A stretch of DNA of 64,000 bases from an uncultured Lachnospiraceae bacterium. GTDB taxonomy: Bacteria > Bacillota > Clostridia > TANB77 > CAG-508. This document shows positions 9,924-50,849 of the stretch, in pieces (the first letter of the stretch is position 1; the number at the start of each line of letters is the position of its first letter). The position numbers and the translations under genes are program-made. The DNA is taken from assembly GCA_945917765.1 (NCBI GenBank), contig CAMEHU010000001.1, positions 1 to 64,000 of the forward strand, in the 5' to 3' direction. A model generated the notes under the pieces. The model was not told the origin of the DNA. It did no database searches and saw only the letters and a program-made list of their open reading frames with translations.

Positions 9924-9956
9924 ATGCAAACCTCCTTTTGTCGAACTTATGTTTTT

Positions 9957-10031: not shown

Positions 10032-10211
10032 TGTCTTTTGAGTAGCCCAAATCTAAGAATTATGTAGATTAAAAAAATATATTAATACGCAGTAAGCGCG
10101 CAGTTTGGCGCCCCCACCTATCGTCTTCCAAACAAGCTCCAACGCCAGCAAACGAACGGAGTATTAATGATATTTTTAAATCTACATAATTCTTAGATTT
10201 GGGTGGCTTAC
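10032..10211. repeat. Large hairpin element, copy A (about 170 bp)
   Basis: A left arm from 10042 (GTAGCCCAAATCTAAGAATT) and a right arm ending at 10211 are complementary over about 45 bases. They enclose a GC-rich core containing GCGCAGTTTGGCGC and GCCAGCAAACGAACGGAG. The core is shared with the copy at 50562, while the arm sequences differ between the copies but still match each other. TGTCTTTTGAGTAGC (10032-10046) marks the left end in both. The 94-aa ORF in the track (10069-10353) is an artefact of this element. It could be a miniature mobile element or a structured RNA. Confidence 0.85.
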
Positions 10212-10251
10212 TTGATTTTCGGTAGTTGTCTCCAAAAGCATTCATGGCTTT

Positions 10252-10330: not shown

Positions 10331-11263
10331 ATGTATAATTTTAGAACAGACATGGCTGATGAAAGAAAAGATATTTACAAAAAAGCAAACAATCTTGACC
10401 AAATCCCTGGTATAGAAACTTCAGAAAATATAATAAGTGAAAATCTTAAAACTAATATTGTAAAAATTATTAACCAAGATGGTGAAAAAGCTATTGGAAA
10501 ACCTATTGGAACTTATGTAACAATTGATATTAAAAATTTAAAATTAGCAACTGATGAAAATATTGAAAATGCTTCCAATGTAGTAAAAGACGAGCTAAAA
10601 AAAATAATTGATTCTCATTGTGAACCACAAGATGAAATTCTTGTAGTTGGTTTAGGAAATCAATTTGTAACACCAGATTCCCTTGGTCCAAAGGTAGTTT
10701 CCGAAATTGATGTTACAAAACATTTTTTGAAATATACTCCACAATTTGTTGAAGAAGGTACTCGTTCAGTTTGTGCAATTGCACCAGGAGTTTTGGGCAC
10801 AACAGGAATTGAAACTTCAGAAATAATTAAAGGAATTGTTAATAATATAAAGCCAAAAATGTTAATAGTTATAGATAGTTTAGCTTCTAAGAGTATCGAA
10901 AGAATAAGCAGTACTGTACAAATCTCAGATACTGGAATTGTTCCTGGTGGTGGTGTAGGTAATGCTCGTGAAGAATTAAGCGAGAAAACTATTGGTATTC
11001 CAGTGATTGCTATAGGTGTTCCAATGGTTGTAGAATCAGCTGTTTTAGTAAATGATTGTTTAGATTTATTTATCGGAAAATTACAAGACGAAGCTAAATC
11101 TAATGATTATTTAAATGATTTAAAAGAACAGGACAATTATGAGGAGATTAAAGATAGTTTAAATCCTACAGGTTATAATATGATTGTTACTCCTAAAGAG
11201 ATTGATGATTTAATCGAAAATATGAAGGATGTTGTTGCAAGAGCTATCAATTTTTCAGTTTAA
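10331..11263 (+). CDS. gpr: Germination protease GPR (spore protease)
   Basis: 310 residues. It matches the A25 family that degrades small acid-soluble spore proteins when the spore germinates. The N-terminal pro-region (FRTDMADER) is present; the zymogen is processed during sporulation. The glycine-rich VVGLGNQFVTPDSLGP and the acidic IVIDSLASK correspond to the two conserved aspartates of the active site. GTTGIETSEIIKG and the C-terminal MIVTPKEIDDLI are family-typical. A GAGG site precedes the ATG, and a terminator follows directly. It is one of few plus-strand genes here. Confidence 0.97.
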   Translation: MYNFRTDMADERKDIYKKANNLDQIPGIETSENIISENLKTNIVKIINQDGEKAIGKPIGTYVTIDIKNLKLATDENIENASNVVKDELKKIIDSHCEPQDEILVVGLGNQFVTPDSLGPKVVSEIDVTKHFLKYTPQFVEEGTRSVCAIAPGVLGTTGIETSEIIKGIVNNIKPKMLIVIDSLASKSIERISSTVQISDTGIVPGGGVGNAREELSEKTIGIPVIAIGVPMVVESAVLVNDCLDLFIGKLQDEAKSNDYLNDLKEQDNYEEIKDSLNPTGYNMIVTPKEIDDLIENMKDVVARAINFSV

Positions 11264-38819: not shown

Positions 38820-38964
38820 ATTTTACAACTCCTTTATAACATATAATTTTACTATATTTTTCTCTAAATTTTATTTACAGATTATCTGAATTATAGCATT
38901 ACAATTTTCACATTTCAACATTTTTTTACAATTATAAATCATTTCCTGTTACATTTTAATACTT

Positions 38965-38980
38965 TTGTCTTTTGAGTAGC
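38965..38980. repeat. Solitary end of the large hairpin element
   Basis: TGTCTTTTGAGTAGC is identical to the left boundary of the hairpin elements at 10032 and 50552. It is followed by CAGAATCATAATATGG, which resembles the arm of copy B, but no core or right arm follows. It may be a deleted copy. Confidence 0.6.
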
Positions 38981-39015
38981 CAGAATCATAATATGGAAAA
39001 TATACATATCCCCCA

Positions 39016-50329: not shown

Positions 50330-50849
50330 ATTTTTTACTCCTTTTTTATATTTCTCCTACTTTTTACTATTTTTCCTGCTTTTTTATTTCATACTTTTTG
50401 ATTATATATCTAGAGTTGTAACTAATATTTTCATTAGTTTATCTATTTATTACTACATTATTTTTACTCACTCTATTATAACACAAAAATGATTAATATC
50501 ATATACTTTGCAAGTATTTTTTATGTTTACTAGTTATAGTTTAACACTTTTTGTCTTTTGAGTAGCTGGAATCATAGAATTATGTAGCGTTCAGAAATAT
50601 ATTAATACGCAGTGGAGTGCGCAGTTTGGCGCTCCTACCTTATGTCTTTATCTCAAATCTTAGCGCCAGTAAACGAACGGAGTATTAATCATATTTCTGA
50701 ACACTACATAATTCTATGATTCCAGTGGGTTATTTCATAAAAAAACTGTAACGTTTACTAAGCAAAGTATTACATTACTCATATACTTTTTTAACATAGG
50801 TCATCATATTTCCTTAATAAATATCTGAAAAATACCTAAAAAATGTTTC
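50330..50849. other. Intergenic region carrying hairpin element B
   Basis: These 520 bases contain no gene. The centre is the large hairpin element (50552-50732). The flanks are AT-rich; the likely promoter of the 426-aa gene is not obvious. Confidence 0.6.
50552..50732. repeat. Large hairpin element, copy B (about 170 bp)
   Basis: The left arm GTAGCTGGAATCATAGAATT (from 50562) matches a right arm ending near 50732 over about 45 bases. The enclosed core shares with copy A the blocks ATTAATACGCAGT, GCGCAGTTTGGCGC and AAACGAACGGAGTATTAAT. Inside, GTTT-GGCGC can pair with GCGCCAGTAAAC, leaving a variable 30-base loop containing ACCT and GTCTT. Arms differ from copy A outside AGAATTATGTAG, but each copy's two arms agree. 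Confidence 0.85.

Follow-up and report, generated by a model that had tools for sequence, protein, structure and literature searches.

The 64,000-nucleotide stretch of clostridial DNA analysed here (henceforth the window; contig CAMEHU010000001.1) carries members of a family of short mobile elements built around a long hairpin. The explanation that best accounts for the element as a whole, and that we consider likely to be right, combines three components: a non-autonomous DNA transposon (MITE), DNA-level copying of one hairpin arm from the other, and a central core whose fold is selected. The copies in the window and their parts are as follows.

50533 to 50752, plus strand: copy B, a full-length MITE of 220 bp with GTTATAG...CTGTAAC ends
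50525 to 50532, plus strand: left target-site duplication of copy B, GTTTACTA, read directly
50753 to 50760, plus strand: right target-site duplication of copy B, GTTTACTA, read directly
50560 to 50565, plus strand: outer asymmetric motif GAGTAG on the 5' side of copy B
50566 to 50608, plus strand: left arm of copy B (arm alignment)
50609 to 50681, plus strand: conserved structured core of copy B (models R1 and R2)
50682 to 50725, plus strand: right arm of copy B, with one extra bulged base (arm alignment)
38948 to 38990, plus strand: third copy, a truncated left end (GTTACATTTTAATACTTTTGTCTTTTGAGTAGCC) without core
10033 to 10218, plus strand: copy A, a decayed MITE copy with the outer GTTAC ends gone and the hairpin intact
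recN (minus strand, ends at 9929) to gpr (starts at 10331): interval into which copy A is inserted
10040 to 10045, plus strand: outer asymmetric motif GAGTAG on the 5' side of copy A, recurring in most copies of several genomes
10046 to 10088, plus strand: left arm of copy A (arm alignment)
10089 to 10160, plus strand: conserved structured core of copy A, GCAGTAAGCGCGCAGTTTGGCGC...CGCCAGCAAACGAACGGA (models R1 and R2)
10161 to 10203, plus strand: right arm of copy A (arm alignment)
10204 to 10210, plus strand: outer asymmetric motif TGGCTTA on the 3' side of copy A

Two covariance models, R1 and R2, recognise the core in copy A (R1 at 10066-10184, E 4.4e-26; R2 at 10069-10181, E 6.7e-11) as well as in copy B (E 1.8e-27 and 6.3e-14, respectively), and 100 shuffles of the window yielded no chance match to the core pattern. 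The complementary arms described in the initial annotation are real in both copies: the inverted repeat 10046-10093 / 10156-10203 of copy A is 85% complementary over 48 nt, that of copy B 97% over 35 nt, and the RNA folding energies correspond to z = -8.2 and z = -9.75, respectively, with none of 200 dinucleotide shuffles as low in either case. Gapped alignment leaves one mismatch and two single-base indels in the arms of copy A and, over 43 aligned nt, one mismatch and a bulge in those of copy B; this bulge is common to both copies. The claim that the two copies differ always in both arms holds for almost all of the 10 left-arm differences, which are mirrored in the right arm, but not for one one-sided position in copy B and one indel in copy A. 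The boundaries had been drawn too narrowly, as copy B really extends from 50533 to 50752 and is flanked left and right by an 8-bp target duplication. Copy A is an older insertion whose outer ends are gone. Its core has C.A at the position termed X-X' below, and the orthologous recN-gpr interval of the relative G109 (L133) lacks the element.

The covariance model and genome search proposed in the initial annotation show that the element is abundant. R1, built from 27 copies and complemented by Blast on the element's own genome, gives 36 matches at E<=0.1 in this 1.8-Mb genome, 24 of them strong (about 25). Relatives carry 57, 27, 23, 22, 19 and 17 copies, and within the genus the element occurs in 13 of 16 genomes, with a maximum of 57 copies. 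R2, a broader model used for an order-wide search, matched 33 of 388 genomes and 14 of 48 genera, with every match inside one clostridial family. A scan of named genomes for the core string had its matches mainly in a MAG labelled Lachnospiraceae (CAMPBM01) and in a few further MAGs of Clostridia, while other single-string matches, in unrelated phyla, were without matched arms or the 5' core motif. Searches of phage, plasmid and viral collections returned no relevant match; an origin from any of these was rejected, and the five viral string matches fall in unrelated sequence without the 5' motif. Many contigs of G109 end no more than ~120 bp from the left end motif, TAGAGTAGTC. Assemblies therefore probably break in the hairpins, so that true copy numbers are likely to be higher than those given here.

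The assignment to a family of non-autonomous DNA transposons (MITEs) is well supported, the defining features being present apart from a parent element. Full-length copies measure 161-230 bp and have GTTAC..GTAAC terminal repeats and 8-bp target duplications. The inverted terminal repeats that define MITEs, GTTACWGTTTAAYA or GTTACARTTCAGG, are found at both ends; they take the form GTTACWGTTTAAYACTTTT in class-1/2 elements (224-230 bp) and GTTACARTTCAGGTGCCC in class-3 elements (161 bp, ~14 nearly identical copies in G199), and copies in other genera (G090, G394) also terminate in GTTACAATTYAC. Target duplications have a fixed length, again as in MITEs: 8 bp are identical at >20 loci, copy B included, with 8/8 identity in 11 full-length class-1/2 copies and in 11 of 15 class-3 copies. 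No transposase gene lies inside the 161-230 bp elements, which are dispersed at 17-57 copies in the richer genomes, a further MITE trait. Mobilisation would occur in trans, probably by a DDE-type transposase. Among the matches listed, no correctly oriented pair of terminal repeats surrounds a transposase gene that could mark an autonomous parent, and transposases of the IS256 (PF00872) and IS66 (PF03050) types are absent from the main carrier genomes. One candidate in G163, a 314-aa IS481/IS1202-like transposase (rve; L414 285-1265, C34) that adjoins a single GTTACAG end, has a 26-bp direct repeat of its own, tttttattaatgaagttacataaatg, on either side and is unrelated.

Several variants of the element were encountered. 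A core that entered empty palindromes already in place was considered and set aside as less likely, as the inspected core-less GTTAC copies (L271, L282, L294, L311) look like deletion or truncation derivatives. L294, L305 and L311 are core-less palindromes of only 28-65 bp that carry the same GTTACARTTCAGGT ends and probably arose by deletion. G194 harbours a palindromic element of 464-472 bp (L398, L399, L400) with the same GTTACARTTCA ends and a very different, also asymmetric interior. At L273 (G199 C17:10335-11190; CAMPBM010000017), a short group II intron in the opposite orientation apparently interrupts the core, a putative assignment made by eye, with domain V GAGCCGTATGAAGGGAGACTTTCACGTACGGTTC and a 5' end GTGTG.

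Complementarity of the arms is maintained throughout the family. Further copies with unmatched arms had been named as the observation that would speak against a matched-arm element; instead, among the 115 copies whose arms reach 20 nt or more, 53 are fully complementary from the first position over a length of up to 46, and across all arms 4594 of 4728 positions (~97%) pair. When nearest-neighbour copies were compared in three copy-rich genomes, changes affecting both arms were counted at 120 positions and changes confined to one arm at 9, the comparisons being partly dependent through shared history of the copies. This ratio argues against independent mutation, which at such divergence would give mostly one-sided changes. 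The same neighbours differ in the core by 0.05-0.15 per base, and two-sided arm changes accumulate at about this rate; under selection for pairing, double changes should lag far behind the core, so that their keeping pace argues against such selection as well. Arm mismatches over the 4728 positions include 35 G.T and 28 A.C, and since G.T is not clearly above A.C, the arms bear no strong mark of RNA wobble intermediates. In the diverse alignment A3, the corresponding counts are 28 versus 18 in the arms and 7 versus 3 in the core helices; the wobble counts lean weakly to the plus strand. One copy, L038, has perfectly symmetric 72-bp arms in which the outer motif has also been made symmetric, while its sisters are asymmetric, with GAGTAG on one side and CGGATTAT on the other.

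That the arms are kept complementary mainly by DNA-level arm-to-arm copying is strongly supported by these comparisons. Published work describes template switching as a way in which perfect stems arise (PMC8794818), and such switching, or quasipalindrome correction, during replication would copy one arm from the other and let changes land in both. Counting against this component are L125 and L126, which agree in the core and in the inner 31 nt and whose matched arms of ~90-109 nt are otherwise unrelated (15/36 identical), a pattern for which point mutation plus conversion offers no simple account. In the element's own genome, L022 and L023 place the core in matched arms of 65-73 bp without the usual outer motifs and have only GATGTCGAAAAAWGTC in common.

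The arm data also bear on a reading of the element as a structured RNA gene family, in which selection on the transcribed RNA would hold the whole hairpin, arms included, and arm differences would be ordinary compensatory mutations. Strong covariation in all helices, very low folding energies and conserved, strand-specific loops are what such a family would display. Yet nearest neighbours differ by 13 double changes for each single one, the double changes arise as fast as core substitutions, arm G.T intermediates are not clearly above A.C, and copies sit at unrelated intergenic sites with target duplications, which makes an RNA gene family unlikely.

The core behaves differently from the arms. 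Its plus strand reads 5' GNAGUNNX-GCGCAGUU-UGG-[hairpin]-CCA-GYAA-X'NNAC-GNA 3'. The tip is formed by a helix of 2-5 bp (GUNNX/X'NNAC, often with tandem G.A pairs) and an invariant asymmetric internal loop (GCGCAGUU / GYAA), beyond which UGG/CCA leads into a variable hairpin of 15 to ~90 nt. In A3 (94 sequences), 90.5% of structure cells are paired versus 60.7% after shuffling, and the covariation score of 0.598 compares with 0.140 for shuffled sequences and <=0.110 when partners are slid by one to three columns; A3 was fitted to the model and is thus biased towards structure, and an independent MAFFT alignment of 27 sequences agrees. Pair X-X' (37-164) occurs as C-G in 69, U-A in 15, U-G in 4 and G-C in 3 sequences, with 0 unpaired among 91, and pair 28-172 as GC in 79, AU in 10 and CG in 2. 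The next pairs outward vary in the same concerted manner (GUUUC/GAAAC, GUUCC/GGAAC and GUCAC/GUGAC within GUNNC/GNNAC, with GUGAC/GGAAC as the tandem G.A form). At what is apparently the same locus in the related species G051 and G022 (L332/L342), GUGAC/GGAAC in one genome is replaced by GUUAC/GUAAC in the other, a double compensation.

Arm copying cannot easily make these helices, as they are short and sit between non-matching loops (GCGCAG, GYAA). Judged from the aligned copies, the core fold is thus shown to be under selection, whether as RNA or as single-stranded DNA. In the copies read, the loop base Y is either C or U, and it faces an invariant G in the covariance model, a combination that would be compatible with G-C and G.U pairs formed by the plus strand; the evidence as a whole favours RNA as the folded form weakly. 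Rfam covariance models run on copy A and 10 related loci produced only low-scoring matches far below gathering scores. Two microRNA matches to copy A, at 31.8 bits where the gathering scores are 249 and 211, were discarded as reflecting only the long AU-rich hairpin, and HEARO and the IS200-IS605 omega RNA gave no Rfam match and no common neighbour gene (such as IscB/TnpB) at the loci inspected. At L329 226-497 (G052 C6), three 91-bp core hairpins lie head-to-tail beside an apparent 5S rRNA gene, near the contig start.

Long perfect palindromes are unstable in bacteria. The element could accordingly be a plain MITE palindrome whose core is merely an asymmetric spacer that guards it from cutting or loss, its conservation reflecting recent spread. 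Besides palindrome instability, the MITE anatomy and the near constancy of the core inside one genome fit this account. However, the letters GCGCAG and CAGYAA are kept across genera while the adjacent helices change by paired substitutions, and neither would be required of a mere spacer; we regard the spacer account as quite improbable. Recognition of a single-stranded DNA hairpin by a recombinase or HUH nuclease, proposed by analogy with integron attC sites (compared with the element by anatomy only) or REP sequences, would suit a structure more conserved than its sequence, a GTAG-like motif beside the hairpin (GTAGAGTAG) and a biased orientation relative to genes, but is highly improbable given 8-bp target duplications and GTTAC terminal repeats typical of DDE transposition and no gene common to the core among the neighbours inspected.

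These results divide the two alternatives offered by the initial annotation, each of which fits one part of the element: covariation of a folded structure for the core, and arm copying for the arms. Where the latter had been ascribed to a transposition mechanism, copying of one arm from the other stands, with template switching in replication likelier than transposition itself. The statement that no described element with this core is known agrees with the lack of an Rfam family match and of a relevant occurrence of the core string in the literature searched. A match to a known IS end, RNA family or MITE had been named as grounds against the reading; no RNA family in Rfam matches. That the element is a MITE with target-site duplications had been missed.

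Elements are intergenic. An adjacent gene as the partner of the core was rejected, as the neighbours at the loci inspected are housekeeping genes with nothing in common. Between co-directional genes, 39 of 49 short-core copies (39 to 10) have their plus strand antisense to the genes, as do 18 of 19 copies in the element's own genome, both by simple ORF calling. Insertion preference, loss of elements in the opposite orientation and replication direction could each produce such a bias. Read-through from the neighbouring genes would in most cases yield mRNA containing the minus strand of the element, which counts against the explanation preferred here.

Base-pair covariation of the core implies that it has a function. 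We tentatively suggest, as one possibility, that it represents an undescribed class of functional RNA, protein-binding or self-processing, carried family-wide by mini-transposons that exchange ends and arms, in a geneless partnership resembling IStrons. As for what such an RNA might do, our leading guess, itself doubtful, is that the plus-strand RNA would fold and be bound or processed, so that transcripts nearby would be less affected by the insertion. Alternatively, the core may serve, as single-stranded DNA, to propagate the element itself.

Known systems resemble the element in part. BOX, RUP and SPRITE of pneumococcus (PMC3049150) and QMITE2 (PMC10969869) are likewise short, gene-less, intergenic and present in high copy number, with terminal repeats, target duplications and transcripts predicted to fold tightly; in contrast to these, the arms described here vary among copies yet match within each, and a distinct core covarying pair by pair persists across genera and different terminal sequences. 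Hairpins shaped by quasipalindrome correction or template switching (PMC8794818, PMC7202029) have mirrored multi-base changes in both arms, as does the symmetric L038 among its asymmetric sisters, but are known as single mutation events or from RNA genes, whereas here apparently dozens of copies of one mobile family are affected. IStrons, which join a group I intron to an insertion sequence (PMC4227781), offer a parallel for a possible pairing of structured RNA and DNA transposon, although the present element has no intron, open reading frame or Rfam match. REP/REPIN sequences are also palindromic and dispersed, with a GTAG-like motif beside the hairpin; the element is far longer and has terminal repeats and 8-bp duplications.

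The family preserves, in natural genomes, the traces of copying between the arms of bacterial hairpins. In dozens of copies, a mutational process that perfects stems can be measured beside a core that evolves by selection, which cautions that matched-arm variation is not always RNA covariation. At the same time, the family provides an undescribed structured core, borne by a transposon through many genera, with clear pairs and loops that can be tested.
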